Source: a bacterium (GTDB taxonomy: Bacteria; Myxococcota_A; UBA9160; SZUA-336). From it: a stretch of DNA of 45,864 nt. Both the position numbers and the translations under genes were made by a program. The notes below the pieces were generated by a model. It was not told the DNA's origin. It saw only the letters and a list, made by a program, of their open reading frames with translations, and searched no databases. Shown here in pieces: positions 13,592-24,838 of the stretch. How positions within the stretch are numbered: position 1 is the first letter of the stretch; the number at the start of each line of letters is the position of its first letter. The stretch lies in contig JAAELY010000083.1 in the NCBI GenBank assembly GCA_024226335.1, positions 1 through 45,864 on the forward strand, read 5' to 3'.

Positions 13592-14029
13592 GTGGGAATT
13601 CACGGTGAACGCAGAATGGCTCGCGAAGCGGCACTTCAGGTGCTGTACGCGGCCGATTCCACCGGCGGGATCCTGCCCGAATCCGTTCTGTCCGCCTACG
13701 CAGAGGTAGAGCAGGAATTCTCGCTACCCACGCGCGCTCGAGAACGCGCCCGTGAACTCGTGTCCGGCGTGTCGCAGAACTTGAAGCAGCTGGACGAGGC
13801 GATCTCGCTGGTGAGCGCAAACTGGAGCCTGAACCGGCTTGCGACCGTCGAGCGCAATCTCCTGCGCATTTCTGCGTATGAGCTCTTGCACGAACCCCAG
13901 ACGCCTGTCGAAGTGGTTCTGGACGAGGCGGTCGAGGTTGCGCGCCGCTTTGGAGGCGATTCCTCGCCGTCCTTCGTCAATGGTGTGCTCGATGAACTCG
14001 CGCGACGCCACAGGCGCCGGGAAGCATGA
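13592..14029 (+). CDS. nusB: transcription antitermination factor NusB
   Basis: RNA-binding all-helical factor that works with NusE (S10) at boxA in rRNA antitermination. The signature RRMAREAALQVLYA is followed by RNLLRISAYELL, then PVEVVLDEAVEVARRF and a SPSFVNGVLD end. The GTG at 13592 keeps the conserved basic RR before AREAALQ; an ATG at 13550 (overlapping ribH) and an ATG at 13616 are alternatives. The ribH-nusB order is standard. Its stop overlaps the next ATG (ATGA). Confidence 0.94.
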   Translation: MGIHGERRMAREAALQVLYAADSTGGILPESVLSAYAEVEQEFSLPTRARERARELVSGVSQNLKQLDEAISLVSANWSLNRLATVERNLLRISAYELLHEPQTPVEVVLDEAVEVARRFGGDSSPSFVNGVLDELARRHRRREA

Positions 14030-14616
14030 GTCAGCTCGCACTGTCGTTGTTCCCGGGACCGGCGACGCTAGCGCAGGCCGAAACCTGCCTGGTCCCCGTT
14101 CCCGAAGACGAGCGTCCGCTGCGCGGTGACGCAGGATGGATCGATTGGCGGCTCTGCGGTCGGATTTCGGAGCAGCTCCGTTCGGGTTACGTCTCTGGAA
14201 TGCCGGGTGAGGCGGCGCTACTGCCCGGAGGCGTACCGTTGCACATCAGCCGGATCCTCTTGGTGGGGGTTGGGCCCAGCGCTCTGCTCGCCGGGGGGCC
14301 GCTCGCGAACGCGATGCGCGGCGCCGTGAGCAAGCTTCTGGCGCTGCAATGTGGTGCGGCACTGCTGGCGTGTCCGGGCAGCATCGATTTGCAGTCCGAA
14401 GCCGCCAGCCTCCTGAGTGGCGTGGTCCAGGGACTCTCCGAGGCACCCGAGGATTCCAGGCTGAACATCGTGCTGGCCGACGGTCAGCAATGCGAGAAGG
14501 CGCTCTTGTCCGCATTGGCGAGTGTCGTTCCTGATGCGCACGGCTGTGGTGTGTCGATCGAGCTCAGCTGGGTCGGGACGGCCGAAGACCCGGAGCCCGT
14601 TCTACAGCAGGCGTAA
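14026..14616 (+). CDS. stand-alone M17 leucyl-aminopeptidase N-terminal (macro-like) domain protein
   Basis: The 196-aa protein resembles the N-terminal, non-catalytic domain of peptidase M17 (PepA). Features are WIDWRLCGRISEQLRSGYVSGMPGEA-type spacing, LPGGVPLHISRILLVGVG (residues 66-83), and an alternating hydrophobic/helical alpha-beta pattern. The catalytic C-terminal domain, with its metal ligands (the NTDAEGR-type motif), is absent, so peptidase activity is not expected. The start overlaps the nusB stop by 4 nt. It precedes two signalling-type proteins. A ligand-binding or regulatory role is inferred only. Confidence 0.6.
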   Translation: MSQLALSLFPGPATLAQAETCLVPVPEDERPLRGDAGWIDWRLCGRISEQLRSGYVSGMPGEAALLPGGVPLHISRILLVGVGPSALLAGGPLANAMRGAVSKLLALQCGAALLACPGSIDLQSEAASLLSGVVQGLSEAPEDSRLNIVLADGQQCEKALLSALASVVPDAHGCGVSIELSWVGTAEDPEPVLQQA

Positions 14617-14686
14617 GGTCAGCTCGGCTCCCGTCCGATTCAGACTCGAGAATCATGTGTCTACCCAGAGGATCGGACTCCTTCTG

Positions 14687-15649
14687 ATGAGCCTCCGCGG
14701 AAATCTCAATGCACTCAGCCTTCCGGAGCTGCTGCAGATCGTGGCGCTGGCGAAGAAGACCGGCGCGCTCGAGATCTGTTCGGAGCAGGGGGTGGCCTGG
14801 CTGGGTCTGGAAGACGGCGGAATCGTGCGCGTTGCGCGAGACGGCGATGTTCTGGATCGCGAGTCGGTGCTCAAATCCCAGAACCTGACACCTGAAAGCG
14901 ATCAGGCGCAGATCGAATCTGCGCTCTGGGACTCCGCCGTTCACGCGATCCTAGAGATTTTCGACTGGCGCGAGGGAGAGTTCATGTTCGAACCCGTCGG
15001 GAATGCCGAGATGGACTGGCGAGGTCCCGAGGGCCTGCGACTACCCGCTCCTGTGGCACCCGAGTTCCTGGCGCTCGAGGGTGCGCGACTCGAAGACGAG
15101 CGCCACAGCCCGGAGCTGAAGCCCGAACCCTTCAATGCAGTCCCGGTTGATCCGGGCATGGACTGGTCGGATCTCAACGAGGGTCCCGCCGGGGTGCTCG
15201 AAACGCCCCCTGTTGTCCCGCCGGTCCCGGTGCCTTCGGGGAAATCCGCGCCAGGCGTGATCATCTGCGTCGATCCGGATCTCTCACTGCTCGAACGCAT
15301 GAAGGAATTGCTCGCGCGTGACAGCAACCGCGTGCACATCTTCCAGGATGGCAATGACGCACTCACACGATTGAAGCAGTACATCATCAGCGGGGATTTT
15401 CCCGTCTTCGTTTTGAGTACTGCCATCGAGGATCCACTGGACGCCCGGCGCGGTCTGGGCTGGCGCCGTTTTGTGGCGCGCCTGCGCAGTCTTGCACCAA
15501 GCATACGCCTGGTGCTGCTGCGAGACGGTGAAGATGGGTCTGATTCCGGGCTCGAGGAAGTCGTGAAGCCCGATCCGCGCTTTGCGACAGAAGTCGACGT
15601 AGTCGACTTTCTCAGTTCTCTCGGGGACGTACTGGGTATGAATGCGTAA
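14687..15649 (+). CDS. PATAN (DUF4388) protein with degenerate C-terminal receiver domain
   Basis: The protein is 320 aa. Residues 1-115 match the PATAN/DUF4388 pattern (LRGNLNALSLPELLQIV, then KTGALEI and a DGGIVRVA strand). PATAN is a protein-interaction domain of delta-proteobacterial and cyanobacterial signalling proteins (named after PatA). A Pro-rich linker (about 140-185) leads to a receiver-like fold (189-318). There the acidic pair (CVDPD, D196/D198) and the Lys (VVKP, K294) remain, but the phospho-accepting Asp position reads Ser (FVLSTA, S244), so it is a pseudo-receiver. The ATG at 14687 begins the PATAN motif; an open frame runs further upstream without domain content. Function unknown, probably regulatory. 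Confidence 0.7.
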   Translation: MSLRGNLNALSLPELLQIVALAKKTGALEICSEQGVAWLGLEDGGIVRVARDGDVLDRESVLKSQNLTPESDQAQIESALWDSAVHAILEIFDWREGEFMFEPVGNAEMDWRGPEGLRLPAPVAPEFLALEGARLEDERHSPELKPEPFNAVPVDPGMDWSDLNEGPAGVLETPPVVPPVPVPSGKSAPGVIICVDPDLSLLERMKELLARDSNRVHIFQDGNDALTRLKQYIISGDFPVFVLSTAIEDPLDARRGLGWRRFVARLRSLAPSIRLVLLRDGEDGSDSGLEEVVKPDPRFATEVDVVDFLSSLGDVLGMNA

Positions 15650-15716
15650 AGGCCGGCGCATAGCCGTCCGATAGTCCACTTGACCCAGCTTGCGACCTGA
15701 GCAGGAGATGTCGCAT

Positions 15717-16886
15717 TTGATCGCCAGTTGTCCACAATGCAATAGCCGCTACCGAATCGCGCGTGAAAAGATCAGTGCGGCCGGCGCTCGAATTCGCTGC
15801 AGTCGCTGCGAGACGATTTTTCGCGTCGAGTCGCCGGGGCCTCGACCCGTCGAAAGTGATCCGCCCGTCGCACAACCCGCTGCGCCCCAGCCAGTCCCCG
15901 CGCAGGTTCCGGCAGCGCCCCAGACCGAGGCGCCCGCATTTCCTTCTCCGAGCCAAGCTGAGGCACCCGCAATTTCTTCTCCGGGCCAAGCTGAGGCACC
16001 GGCTGATCCATCGCTTCAGCAATCGCCGGCCACGGTTCCGACGGCTCCAACACCACCGGTGCCCGCACGTCCCAAGACGCGCGTGCTCGTGGCCGAGGGT
16101 GATTCTGACGTCGCGAAAAAGCTCGCCACCTTTCTGACCGACTGGGGACTGGACCCGGAAGTCGTTCACGACGGTGGCGAAGCCCTGCTGCGCCTGTTCC
16201 GCAACCGTCCCAAATTGGCGGTTCTGGGCGGTCACTTGCCGGGCGTTTCTTCGGTCGTCCTGGCCGAGGTGTTGCGTCGCAGTGCAGACCTGCAGGACAT
16301 GACTCTGATTCGTGTTGCACCGATGGACGAGCCTGCAGGTGCACCCGAGTTCGACGCGAACCACACTCTGGAGCCAGGTGATCTGCCGGACGGCCTCGCT
16401 GCCCTGCTCGAGACTCATGGGCTTGGAGCCAGGCCGACACCAGAACCCGAACTCGAACGGCCGGTGGCTCCCGCACCCGAGCCGCCCTCCGAGCCCGTTG
16501 CCGTAGCCCCGACTCCGGCCCCAGAAACACCTGCTGTATCTGAAAAGAGCAGTCCGGGTCAGCAGGCTCCGATGCCCGGCTCCCCGACGGCTCCCGAAGC
16601 GGAAGCGAAACCGAGACGACGTCGTCGCCCGCCGCCGCTTTCTGACGATCCCGAGATCGCGGCGGCGGAACGGCTGGCTCGGATCGCAGTTTCGGACGTG
16701 ATCCTCTACAACGAGGAGAAGTTCGCGGACGCCGTGAAGCAGGGAAACGTCGCCGACAGCATGGCCGCCGATATTCAGGAAGCGCGCCACCATTTCAACC
16801 AGCGCATTCCCGAAGAAGTCCGGTCCAAGAAGGACTATCTGATCGAAGAGCTGGAACGCCGCGCGTCGATCGCCGCAAGCGCGTAA
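15717..16886 (+). CDS. MJ0042-type zinc ribbon / pseudo-receiver regulatory protein
   Basis: The protein is 389 aa. It has an N-terminal zinc ribbon, C5-x2-C8...C28-x2-C31, of the MJ0042 type (CPQCNSRYRI...RCSRC), then a Pro/Ala/Glu linker with near-repeats, and a receiver-like domain (about 119-235). The Asp position of that domain reads Gly (LAVLGGHLPG) and the usual Lys-Pro reads Glu-Pro, so phosphorylation is unlikely. A second Pro-rich linker follows, then a helical C-terminal module (about 315-389: AERLARIAVSDVILYNEEKF and onward). I recall similar tails in other delta-proteobacterial proteins. I chose TTG 15717 because AGGAG (15703-15707) sits 9 nt upstream and proteins of this type begin M-I-x-x-C-P; ATG 15708 touches the AGGAG directly. 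Confidence 0.7.
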   Translation: MIASCPQCNSRYRIAREKISAAGARIRCSRCETIFRVESPGPRPVESDPPVAQPAAPQPVPAQVPAAPQTEAPAFPSPSQAEAPAISSPGQAEAPADPSLQQSPATVPTAPTPPVPARPKTRVLVAEGDSDVAKKLATFLTDWGLDPEVVHDGGEALLRLFRNRPKLAVLGGHLPGVSSVVLAEVLRRSADLQDMTLIRVAPMDEPAGAPEFDANHTLEPGDLPDGLAALLETHGLGARPTPEPELERPVAPAPEPPSEPVAVAPTPAPETPAVSEKSSPGQQAPMPGSPTAPEAEAKPRRRRRPPPLSDDPEIAAAERLARIAVSDVILYNEEKFADAVKQGNVADSMAADIQEARHHFNQRIPEEVRSKKDYLIEELERRASIAASA

Positions 16887-16952: not shown

Positions 16953-18308
16953 GTGAGCATCGTGATCGTCGGGGGTGGAGAAATCGGCGCTACTCTCGCA
17001 GAGCATCTGTCTCGCGAGAGCAAGGACGTCATCGTGATCGAGGCCGATGAGGCTCGCGTCCGCGAGCTTCGCGATGCCGCCGATGTGAGCGTCGTACACG
17101 GCAACGGCTCCAATCCCGAAGTCCTCAAGGCGGCCGGTCTCGACGAGGCCGAGATGCTGATTGCCGTAACCAACTCCGACGAGGTGAACATCGTCGCCAG
17201 TCTGGTTGCCACCAAGCAGAGTGTCATTCGCACGAATATCGCGCGCGTGCGCGATCCGGACCTGGCGGCGGCGGTACCCGCCTTGTTCGAAGACGATCCA
17301 CTCGATCTGAATATCAATCCCGAAGAGGTGGCGGCCCGCAACATCCTCAAGACGCTGCGTGTTCCCGGAGCAGCCGGTGTCTTCGACTTCGCGGACGGCC
17401 GCGTGCAGGTCGGGGCCTTCACCGTCGATCAAGACTGCGCCACCGTCGGCGTGCCGTTGTTCGAACTCGCGAACAAGTTCGATTTCGATTTCAATATCGT
17501 CGCGATCTCGCGTCGCGGTCCAGCGTTCATTCCCGACGGTCGCTCTCAGATCGAAATTGGCGACAAGATCTACGCGGCGGGTTCACCCGAAGCCCTCAGC
17601 GAACTGGCGTCTCTACTGGGAAAGCCCAATGTAGACACGCGCCGTATCGTGATCGCCGGTGGCGGGAACATCACCTATCACCTGGCGCAGATGCTCGAGG
17701 ACGAGGAAATCTCCTGCAAGATCATCGAAGCCGATGCCGGCCGGTGCAAGTACCTGGCTGAACGCCTGGGTCGCAGCGTGATCCTGCACGGCGCCGCGAC
17801 GGATCCCGATCTGCTGCGCGAGGAAAACGTCGGTAGCACCGACGCTTTTCTCGCGTTTACGAAGGACGAAGAAGACAACATCCTGGCCGCGCTACTCGCC
17901 AAGCGGGCCGGAGCGGCCCGCGTGATGGCGTTGGTCAATAAACCTTCCTATGCGTCGCTCGTCATGACCATCGGAGTGGATGCGGTGATCAGTCCGAACG
18001 CCGCAGCGGTCTCCGCCATCTTGCACTTCATTCGCAAGGGTAAAGTGGTGTCGGTTACGACCGTGGGCGAGGAGGCGGCCGAGGCGCTCGAGGTCGTCGC
18101 TCTCGAGACATCGGAACTGGTCGGCAAGCCGCTGAAAGAAGGCGGCTTCAAGAACGCGATCGTCGGCGCGATCGTGCGCGGCGACGAAGTACACATCCCT
18201 TCGGGCGAGGACATCATCGAAGTGGGGGATCACGTCGTGATCTTCGCGCTCAAGAGCGCGATTCCCGACGTGGAACGGCTCATGATGGTTCAGTTGCGGT
18301 ACTTTTGA
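16953..18308 (+). CDS. trkA: Trk potassium uptake system regulatory subunit TrkA
   Basis: Peripheral cytosolic subunit that gates a TrkH/TrkG potassium channel by binding NAD(H)/ATP. At 451 aa it has the full double layout: the first Rossmann RCK_N with IVIVGGGEIG, an RCK_C, the second RCK_N (IVIAGGGNIT near residue 232) and the second RCK_C ending in DHVVIFAL. The GTG at 16953 gives the canonical M-S-I-V-I-V-G-G-G start; an in-frame GTG lies at 16935. No trkH is found in the window. The stop overlaps the lptE start. Confidence 0.94.
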   Translation: MSIVIVGGGEIGATLAEHLSRESKDVIVIEADEARVRELRDAADVSVVHGNGSNPEVLKAAGLDEAEMLIAVTNSDEVNIVASLVATKQSVIRTNIARVRDPDLAAAVPALFEDDPLDLNINPEEVAARNILKTLRVPGAAGVFDFADGRVQVGAFTVDQDCATVGVPLFELANKFDFDFNIVAISRRGPAFIPDGRSQIEIGDKIYAAGSPEALSELASLLGKPNVDTRRIVIAGGGNITYHLAQMLEDEEISCKIIEADAGRCKYLAERLGRSVILHGAATDPDLLREENVGSTDAFLAFTKDEEDNILAALLAKRAGAARVMALVNKPSYASLVMTIGVDAVISPNAAAVSAILHFIRKGKVVSVTTVGEEAAEALEVVALETSELVGKPLKEGGFKNAIVGAIVRGDEVHIPSGEDIIEVGDHVVIFALKSAIPDVERLMMVQLRYF

Positions 18309-21914: not shown

Positions 21915-23750
21915 CTGCGCGCTCTTATACGAATTGGAACGTTCGCGCTCATCGCCTTTTCGGCGCTGACGCTACACCCGTCCGTCGGCTCGACGGAGGC
22001 GGCAACGGAGCACTCCGACCCGCTACTCGTTCCTTCGGAACCTCTCCCGGTGCCCGAGGCCGTGGTCAAGTCCAGCGTGGCGGGGCGCATCCTGATGGCA
22101 TCCGAGCGCTATCGGGAACACGGCTACGATCAGCTGCCCGTCCTCGCTCTCGCCTTGCTCGACGAGGCCCGCCAGCGCTCGAATCTGCTCCTCGTGGACA
22201 AGGCGGTTGTACTCGCCCCGAATTCTCCCGCAGTTCGCTTCGAGGCCGCTCGGCTCGCGCATAGTCCGATGGATCTTTTCGCGGCTCTCTGGGCGTTGAT
22301 GACTCGGCTTCCAGGATTGCTCTGGCTCTTGCAGTTGGTCGGTGCCATGTTCTGCATCGGCCTCGCGCTGGCCACCTCATTGATGATCGTGGTGGCGCTG
22401 GTGCGCAGCGCGCCCCAGCACACCCACGCACTCGGACACCTGGGAAACTCGAAGGACCTGCCCGGTCTTCCCGGTTTCGTCACGATACTGGCTCTGCTCG
22501 GGTTGCTCCCGCTGGCGGGCTTTGGTCCCGCTCTGGTGCTCGCGGTCGCCGGAGCTTTTGCGGCGTTGCGCCTGTCTCGCCGCGAGGCCTGCGGGGTCGG
22601 TTTCGCGCTGCTCGTTTCGGGTCTGTGCCTCGGACCCCTGCTCGACGGCTGGTCCCGCGTGGCCGCGATCCAGGAAGGCAACGCGCATGTTCTGGCGGCC
22701 TGGCGGGTGGAACGCGCACAGCCTCTACCGGGGGATCTCGCGCGTCTGACGGCTGCTCACGAGCGCAGCCCCGACGACATCCTGGTGCGTCTGGCCCTGG
22801 CCACTCTGTACGAACGCGAGGGAAATCTGGATCGCGCGATCCAGATTCTCGGTCGACCCCCGGCGAATGCGAACGGGTCGATGTTGAGTGCGATGTTCAA
22901 TCTGCGCGGAATCATCGCGCTCGCTCAGGGCAGGGCGCAGGATGGCATTCACGAGTTTCAATCGGCGCGCTCGGCGCATGAATCTGCTGCGGTCCTGTTC
23001 AATCTATCCCAGGCCTATGGAAGAGCTTTGCGTCTAGCGGAACAGCAACCGTTGTTCAGCGCTGCGCGCGCACTCGATCCCGGTCTCATCAGTCGCGTAT
23101 CCTCGCTCGATGGGCGCACTATTCACGATCATCTGATTCACGCCCGCCTGCCGCTTTTGACCTATCTAGAGGAAGCCACGAGCAGCGATGTCAGCTCAAA
23201 TGCGCTCGCCCGCGAGATGCGCATGCGCGCTCTCGGCCCGCGCTTTTCGGACCTCGGCTGGATCGCGTTGCCCGTGCTCGGCATCCTGGGCGTACTCCTG
23301 CGTCGCTCGGATATCGGGCACTGCCGACGCTGTTCCCGCGCAATCTGCGCGGCCTGTGAGACCGAGTCCAACACACGAGATACCTGTGTTCGATGCGAAG
23401 CGTTGTTCGGCCGTTCGACGATCAGGGATCCCCGAGTGCACCGTGAGCAATTGCGTCACGAGCGTCGCCGACAGAAACACGAGTTGTACGGCCTGGCGCT
23501 GGCCGGTCTGCTGGTCCCAGGCACGCCCGAGGTCTACAACGGACGCCTCGGAGCGGGTTTCGCAAGGCTCTGGTTCCTTGCGGTCGCGGCATTCCTGCTC
23601 CTGATGGCCGATCTCCTGCCAACGCCCTGGGACGTGGGTGAACTCGGATTCTGGCTACCCACTGGGTTCGGATTGCTCGTCCTGGTGCCGCTCTATCTGA
23701 ACTCGGTTCTGCGCGCGGTCCAATCGCTCGCTGAAGCAAGGGCAATCTGA
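21915..23750 (+). CDS. membrane protein with TPR-like repeats and a cysteine-rich zinc ribbon
   Basis: Family not recognised. The frame contains a signal-peptide-like segment (about residues 1-30, IGTFALIAFSALTL), a helical region, two hydrophobic hairpins (about 120-150 and 165-230), TPR-like helices with the P-D-D-I-L-V-R-L-A-L-A pattern (about 260-400), a further membrane helix, a C-x2-C...C-x2-C...C-x2-C ribbon (CRRCSRAICAAC..CVRC, near 470-495), a charged linker and two last membrane helices. A safe GTG start is 22050, but the signal peptide lies upstream of it in frame. CTG 21915 has GAGGGG 6 nt before it; otherwise ATG 21901 would need one extra G in the GGGG run. Its TGA overlaps the ATG of the next PATAN gene. 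Confidence 0.62.
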   Translation: MRALIRIGTFALIAFSALTLHPSVGSTEAATEHSDPLLVPSEPLPVPEAVVKSSVAGRILMASERYREHGYDQLPVLALALLDEARQRSNLLLVDKAVVLAPNSPAVRFEAARLAHSPMDLFAALWALMTRLPGLLWLLQLVGAMFCIGLALATSLMIVVALVRSAPQHTHALGHLGNSKDLPGLPGFVTILALLGLLPLAGFGPALVLAVAGAFAALRLSRREACGVGFALLVSGLCLGPLLDGWSRVAAIQEGNAHVLAAWRVERAQPLPGDLARLTAAHERSPDDILVRLALATLYEREGNLDRAIQILGRPPANANGSMLSAMFNLRGIIALAQGRAQDGIHEFQSARSAHESAAVLFNLSQAYGRALRLAEQQPLFSAARALDPGLISRVSSLDGRTIHDHLIHARLPLLTYLEEATSSDVSSNALAREMRMRALGPRFSDLGWIALPVLGILGVLLRRSDIGHCRRCSRAICAACETESNTRDTCVRCEALFGRSTIRDPRVHREQLRHERRRQKHELYGLALAGLLVPGTPEVYNGRLGAGFARLWFLAVAAFLLLMADLLPTPWDVGELGFWLPTGFGLLVLVPLYLNSVLRAVQSLAEARAI

Positions 23751-24838
23751 TGAGTCTTCAGGGATCCCTGACCGACTTCCCGGTTGCCGATGTCTTCCAG
23801 CTGATCGGGCATCAACGCAAGACCGGTGTGCTCGAGGTCGCTCAGGGGGATCGGAGACTCCAGGTTCTTTTCCTCGAAGGTGCCGTACTCTCGGCGCGTC
23901 CGGCCGAAGCGCGGCCCGGCGGAGCGCTCGCGGGCTTCTTGTTGCGCACAGGCGTTCTGTCCGAGGCTGAACTGGCCACTGCGCGCAGCCATCAGGAAGA
24001 GACACTCGAATCGTTGGCCCAGGCGCTGCTCTCGAAGAATCTGGTACGAGAGTCCGATCTGGAACAGGTCCAACGCCTGACGACCGACGAGTCGATCTTC
24101 GAGCTCTTCCTATGGGACGAAGGCAGCTTCTCCTTCCGTCCCGAAGAAGTCGCTTCTTCTCCTGGGGATTCCCCGATTGGTGCGGAGATGGTCCTGCTCG
24201 ACGCACTGCGCATGCGCGACGAGTGGGCGAATGTGCGCAGTCAGCTTTCCGATCTCTCGGTGAGGATTTCGCAAGCCGTCGACATCGATGAATTCCGTCT
24301 GAAGCGCGCCAGTGTTGAGCAGTCGTCCGGCATGACCGCCGGCCAACTCGAGAAACTCTTCAACCTGGCCAATGTGCCGAACACTGCGCGGCGTCTGATC
24401 GATCTTTCGCGACTCGGGACGTTTACCGGCGCACGCGCGTTGGTGGCGCTCCTGCGCCAGCAGGTCATCCGTATCGACAGCACCTCTGCGAAAGCCCGAG
24501 CCGGGCGCGTCGAGCACTCTGTGAGTGAACGCCCTCTCCTCACAGTTGCGGTTCTGGGCCTCGCGGCCATCCTCGCCGGGATTCTGTGGACCGTGCCAGA
24601 GCTGCTGGAACGAACTCATCCGATACCGGCGGATTCGCTCCGCAACGCTCGCATCGCGGCAACCACATTGCGTCTGGAAGCCGAGCTGGAGTCCTACCGC
24701 TGGGCGGAAGGGGCCTACCCGCAGTCGTTGACGGCCTTGCGCGGGCGCGGCCGCCAGAGCTTGGCGACCGTCCAACTGGATCACTACAGTTACGCCCGCT
24801 CCGAGACGGGGTTTCGCCTCCGCCGAATTCTGCCCTAG
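23750..24838 (+). CDS. PATAN (DUF4388) protein with a C-terminal membrane anchor
   Basis: The protein is 362 aa. The N-terminus is a clear PATAN/DUF4388 domain (LQGSLTDFPVADVFQLIGHQRKTGVLEV type; quoted parts: LQGSLTDFPVADV and KTGVLEV). It is followed by helical segments with SEAEL/ESDLEQ motifs like those in PATAN-GspE_N-type proteins, a region of two short helical modules to about residue 245, one hydrophobic helix (about 265-285) and a small C-terminal domain with a Y-R-W-A-E-G-A-Y-P pattern, resembling the pilin/pseudopilin-type 'yrw..G.YP.sl..L' motif. It overlaps the upstream TPR membrane gene by 1 nt, so the two are probably one functional unit. Role unknown; probably scaffolding or signalling at the membrane. 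Confidence 0.65.
   Translation: MSLQGSLTDFPVADVFQLIGHQRKTGVLEVAQGDRRLQVLFLEGAVLSARPAEARPGGALAGFLLRTGVLSEAELATARSHQEETLESLAQALLSKNLVRESDLEQVQRLTTDESIFELFLWDEGSFSFRPEEVASSPGDSPIGAEMVLLDALRMRDEWANVRSQLSDLSVRISQAVDIDEFRLKRASVEQSSGMTAGQLEKLFNLANVPNTARRLIDLSRLGTFTGARALVALLRQQVIRIDSTSAKARAGRVEHSVSERPLLTVAVLGLAAILAGILWTVPELLERTHPIPADSLRNARIAATTLRLEAELESYRWAEGAYPQSLTALRGRGRQSLATVQLDHYSYARSETGFRLRRILP

Follow-up and report, generated by a model that had tools for sequence, protein, structure and literature searches.

The window, the whole stretch of 45,864 nucleotides analysed here, contains three genes between nusB and trkA, all on the plus strand, as the original prediction had described and as open reading frames and Pfam matches confirm. 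The features are:

13592-14029, plus strand: nusB, the upstream neighbour (PF01029, E 4.5e-35)
14026-14616, plus strand: M17_N-only protein of 196 aa (PF02789, E 1.9e-8)
14687-15649, plus strand: PATAN (DUF4388) plus pseudo-receiver protein of 320 aa, P0002 (PF14332, E 2.6e-18)
P0002, aa 1-140: PATAN (DUF4388) domain (PF14332, E 2.6e-18)
P0002, aa ~190-316: pseudo-receiver, with Ser244 at the phospho-Asp position
15650-15707, plus strand: intergenic gap of 58 bp separating the two pseudo-receiver genes, interpreted from the gene order in relatives and outgroups
15708-16886, plus strand: MJ0042 zinc ribbon, pseudo-receiver and helical tail protein of 392 aa, P0003 (PF13717, E 2.1e-11)
P0003, aa 1-42: MJ0042 zinc ribbon (PF13717, E 2.1e-11; TIGR02098, E 4.8e-10)
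P0003, aa ~122-238: pseudo-receiver, with Gly174 at the phospho-Asp position
P0003, aa ~314-392 (window 16644-16877): helical tail domain, from the AF2 model
16953-18308, plus strand: trkA, the downstream neighbour (PF02254, E 1.1e-50)

The nusB stop codon and the M17_N start codon overlap in ATGA, and the two pseudo-receiver genes likely start at ATG 14687 and ATG 15708. For the first gene, PF02789 was the sole Pfam match (aa 29-137 of 196) and no M17 catalytic C-terminal domain was found, in keeping with the proposal that it consists of the non-catalytic N-terminal domain alone.

The second gene does encode, as proposed, a PATAN domain followed by a receiver-like fold with Ser244 in place of the Asp. 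The AlphaFold2 (AF2) model of P0002 (mean pLDDT 84.9) predicts a (beta-alpha)5 receiver fold at the C-terminus, and Foldseek searches of the PDB with the models of P0002 and P0003 returned receivers almost throughout, while Pfam Response_reg had no match in P0002. In the class alignment the phospho position is occupied by Ser244 (motif FVLSTA), leaving no phospho-accepting Asp; the Lys-Pro (K294) and one acidic residue are retained. The same alignment indicates that P0002 lacks the C-terminus of its relatives, a part that we call GAF-like from inspection of the sequence by eye and not from a library search. A second PATAN-like protein, read from the list of open reading frames, lies beside phoH (window 23750-24838), and weak PATAN matches are found behind holA in relatives at a similar distance.

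All proposed features of the third gene were found as well. The N-terminal zinc ribbon of P0003 has two CxxC pairs whose cysteines (8, 11, 31 and 34) are invariant in 60 sequences, as are several residues of the tail. The AF2 model shows three folded parts with a pLDDT mostly above 90, the last being a short helical domain at the C-terminus that follows a low-confidence linker. The middle part is predicted to adopt a (beta-alpha)5 receiver fold; its best PDB match is the FrzS receiver 2i6f (E 1.4e-7; TM 0.83, normalised by target), although ordinary receivers score nearly as high. Pfam barely recognises this part (Response_reg, E 0.047), its phospho position is Gly174 (motif LAVLGGHLPG) without a phospho-accepting Asp, and the Lys-Pro of receivers is replaced by Glu222-Pro. 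Structure prediction thus supports a receiver-like fold in both proteins and the alignment restores the Asp in neither. The original prediction that both receivers have lost their phosphorylation chemistry consequently stands with regard to the Asp, but only in part for P0002, which keeps K294-Pro and an acidic residue.

The helical tail has no Pfam model. It is also found as stand-alone proteins of ~90 aa, one of which (L237:1601-1870) has a DnaJ/HTH-like gene on one side, an RluD-like gene on the other and a MinD-like ATPase nearby, and one further tail match exists in the window genome on contig C355. A profile search of the phylum outside the class gave no clear full-length MJ0042 protein and one partial match (G119), nearly all matches being single receivers or stand-alone tails; a search of a plasmid collection with P0003 gave no match. 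This analysis brings to notice an operon protein that combines a zinc ribbon, a receiver and a helical tail domain without a Pfam model. In one genome (G041) the MJ0042 protein is ~172 aa long (L129:3620-4135) and contains the zinc ribbon and the tail while the receiver is gone; this is a point against the adaptor reading given below, as this receiver may matter little.

The locus order was read in about 50 genomes of the class, which can be named only through records labelled Myxococcota, Myxococcales or Deltaproteobacteria. Most of them contain, in this order, nusB, M17_N, a PATAN-REC-GAF gene, cheY, cheA, cheW, cheW, MCP, an MJ0042-REC-tail gene, HEAT, cheR and cheB, flanked by ribD and ribH upstream and by lptE and holA further downstream, with the MCP missed by the scan in a few operons. 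The 58-bp gap is thus the site at which relatives carry cheY-cheA-cheW-cheW-MCP, and the MJ0042 gene is followed by trkA in the window as opposed to HEAT-cheR-cheB in operon-bearing relatives. The accessory genes PATAN-REC and MJ0042-REC-tail are present in the window in the ancestral order, whereas cheA, cheW, cheR and cheB, present in most relatives, are absent from its locus. The window genome and most of its relatives are metagenome assemblies, in which an absence from the draft may be an assembly gap, although each che-less locus used here was covered by a single contig spanning the gap.

In the family of the window the che core is absent, and what remains differs between genomes: the trio is retained in four (G004, G007, G009 and G010), M17_N and the MJ0042 gene in two (G005 and G006) and M17_N alone in one (G008). 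Among che-less genomes in general, several have no PATAN gene but still carry the MJ0042 gene. The trio is more than a chance arrangement: it is conserved within the family and can be followed across the class. It had been put forward as a unit of its own, a purpose-built scaffold of three proteins including M17_N, and the genes are indeed adjacent, on one strand and kept together in the four genomes named. In most relatives, however, about 6-7 kb of che genes separate the second gene from the third, and in every locus read M17_N follows nusB, even where the other two genes are lost (G008, G017 and G025). M17_N is therefore a nusB-linked gene throughout the class that probably lies outside the signalling unit, the claim of a separate unit gives way to that of the remains of a chemosensory operon in which adjacency of the PATAN and MJ0042 genes is not required, and we regard a dedicated three-gene scaffold as very improbable.

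A common che order, with PATAN-REC first and the MJ0042 protein before HEAT, is also found in Geobacter, Geomonas and other Desulfuromonadales and in Ca. Manganitrophus (Nitrospirota). Because of this matching order the che core is most simply taken, from gene order, to be older than the class and to have been lost in the family of the window. The reverse, an insertion of the core between two older neighbours, would agree with the position of this family as sister branch to the rest in a midpoint-rooted tree, which by itself cannot separate gain from loss; yet Desulfuromonadales and Nitrospirota already have the core between PATAN-REC and the MJ0042 protein, which, unless the operon was transferred as a whole, makes a later gain the least probable of the explanations considered here. 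The origin of the two pseudo-receiver genes from such an operon is well supported at the sequence level.

The loss does not seem to have been a single event. On the tree, which was calculated from RibD, RibH, NusB and HolA of 43 genomes and midpoint-rooted, the presence of the che core changes nine times, and six of these changes are forced by supported branches, which puts the estimated number of core losses in the class at about nine, six of them on supported branches. The MJ0042 protein is retained in most che-less genomes and PATAN-REC in fewer.

The proteins left behind may be decaying remnants without a present function after the loss of the kinase. The absence of PATAN-REC from many che-less genomes, the shortened PATAN-REC copy of the window with its missing GAF-like part, and receivers barely recognisable by sequence all point in this direction. 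On the other hand, the frames of both pseudo-receiver genes are open in four genera of the family, the dN/dS values of the trio are below 1 and close to those of the neighbouring nusB, holA and ribD, and the cysteines of the zinc ribbon, like several residues in the tail, do not vary in 60 sequences, so that slow decay appears improbable.

The phospho-Asp was lost differently in the two proteins. None of the 37 PATAN receivers of the class has it, with or without the operon, and Ser, Ala, Gly, Arg or Thr is found instead, while the CheY of the operon retains Asp, Thr and Lys in the alignment. In 10 of the 11 Desulfuromonadales-type copies read, including that of Geobacter, the PATAN receiver has the Asp. 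As the Asp is missing in lineages of the class that still have the kinase, its loss did not require the loss of the kinase; the most parsimonious explanation is one loss early in the class, though there may have been two. In the MJ0042 receiver the usual Thr and Lys are missing even from copies with the Asp, and the Asp itself is found in 20 of the 28 operon-bearing genomes compared to 8 of the 19 that have no operon (the partial operon of G019 has no MJ0042 protein at the locus). All copies in the family of the window have Gly at this position. A link between the loss of the MJ0042 Asp and that of the che core was considered and rejected: the raw counts of receivers without Asp (8/28 versus 11/19) suggest one, but the difference is not significant on independent pairs.

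It is seldom possible to see how pseudo-receivers come about. In this class, kinase-bearing and kinase-less close relatives stand side by side, and one may ask directly which role a response regulator has after losing its kinase. Because both receiver folds are without the phospho-Asp and are conserved outside this genome, a protein interaction independent of phosphorylation is the most natural reading, the absence of phosphorylation in the cell being our inference. This much of the original prediction holds; the scaffold that it had suggested is possible, but nothing favours it over an adaptor.

The reading that we favour, with somewhat better than even confidence, is that the two genes encode retained adaptors of an ancestral chemosensory operon which work independently of a kinase, their output likely being type IV pili. 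Under this model the ancestral PATAN protein would have been a phosphorylatable response regulator whose receiver lost its Asp in the class while most lineages still had the kinase, and the MJ0042 receiver would already have been atypical, losing its Asp in several lineages including that of the window. In the family of the window cheY, cheA, cheW, cheW and MCP, then HEAT, cheR and cheB, were lost from the locus. Today both proteins would most likely be protein-binding adaptors without phosphorylation: PATAN would engage the motor of a type IV pilus, for example PilB, while partner proteins would be held together by the zinc ribbon, the pseudo-receiver and the tail. A connection between MJ0042 zinc ribbons and MglA, suggested by work on GltJ, found no support in the literature consulted and forms no part of this model. 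Extended to the whole class, the model would state that a chemosensory system shed its kinase core about nine times and left phosphorylation-independent adaptors that still control type IV pili, with the MJ0042-pseudo-receiver-tail protein usually kept; this broader version we put forward tentatively, as possible but less likely than not to hold in full.

Some support for a connection to pili might come from the distribution of PilT, which is absent from 4 of 72 genomes, all four of them also lacking the MJ0042 protein (both present in 64 genomes, PilT present without a clear MJ0042 protein in 4, neither present in 4; Fisher p 7e-5, uncorrected for relatedness; weak matches covering only the receiver or the ribbon, in G019, G042 and G070, were scored as absent). 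Since the PilT-less genomes are few, three of them being genomes of only 2.2-2.8 Mb from one family, this link may only reflect genome reduction.

Alternatively, the two proteins could serve, unphosphorylated, as adaptors of another array, docked to its CheA, CheW or receptors. The window genome has three CheA matches (contigs C222, C147 and C118) and several CheW domains, and the same proteins lie inside the che operon in relatives. However, the CheA proteins on C222 and C147, encoded in separate che clusters (L231 and L232) that also have a CheW, CheR and CheB of their own, reach no more than 430 bits with the CheA model of the class as opposed to about 980-1170 bits for the intact operon CheA of the class and are, judged by these scores, distant from the CheA that was lost. 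In addition, the MJ0042 protein persists without any CheA match in seven genomes (G013, G016, G018, G027, G031, G057 and G076), and in the first six of these without any CheW match either. Docking to another array thus seems rather unlikely for the two proteins. A second, shorter CheA-like protein occurs through the class, with open frames mostly of about 420-600 aa and weak H-kinase_dim scores; an example in the window genome is G000:C118:21784-21972.

Among described systems, the nearest are the Esn system of G. sulfurreducens (PMC5585712) and the che clusters termed group beta, which occur in Geobacter and further delta-Proteobacteria (Tran et al. 2008, PMC2577667). In the Geobacter operons of this analysis, PATAN-REC, cheY, cheA, cheW, HEAT, cheR and cheB surround the MJ0042 protein, in agreement with a cluster conserved among delta-Proteobacteria; gene content, not a gene-by-gene match, suggests that they correspond to the group beta or Esn cluster of the literature. 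The window differs from them in lacking the whole kinase and adaptation core and in having Ser where the Geobacter PATAN receiver has Asp. For Che8 of Myxococcus xanthus (MXAN_4751-4759, PMC3945109), the order according to the published gene numbering is cheY, cheB, cheR, two genes not listed, cheW, cheW, cheA and cheY, which is the order of the class reversed; this likeness is one of gene numbers and gene order only.

The cyanobacterial PatA-type regulators PixG, PixE, PilG and LsiR also combine PATAN with a receiver and belong to systems that steer type IV pili (PMC7690835, PMC10519157); in Synechocystis, the motor protein PilB is bound by PATAN domains (PMC10519157, PMC7690835). P0002 likewise has PATAN (PF14332, E 2.6e-18) joined to a receiver fold, but it is without the phospho-Asp and its locus without a che system, and it may bind the type IV pilus motor, as published for cyanobacteria (PMC10519157). 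FrzS of M. xanthus, which has a receiver without the phospho-Asp and acts in pilus-based motility (PMC3158785), shares this feature with the P0003 receiver, for which it is the best fold match in the PDB. Whereas FrzS has a coiled coil, P0003 is without one at its C-terminus and instead carries a zinc ribbon in front of the receiver and a helical tail behind it.
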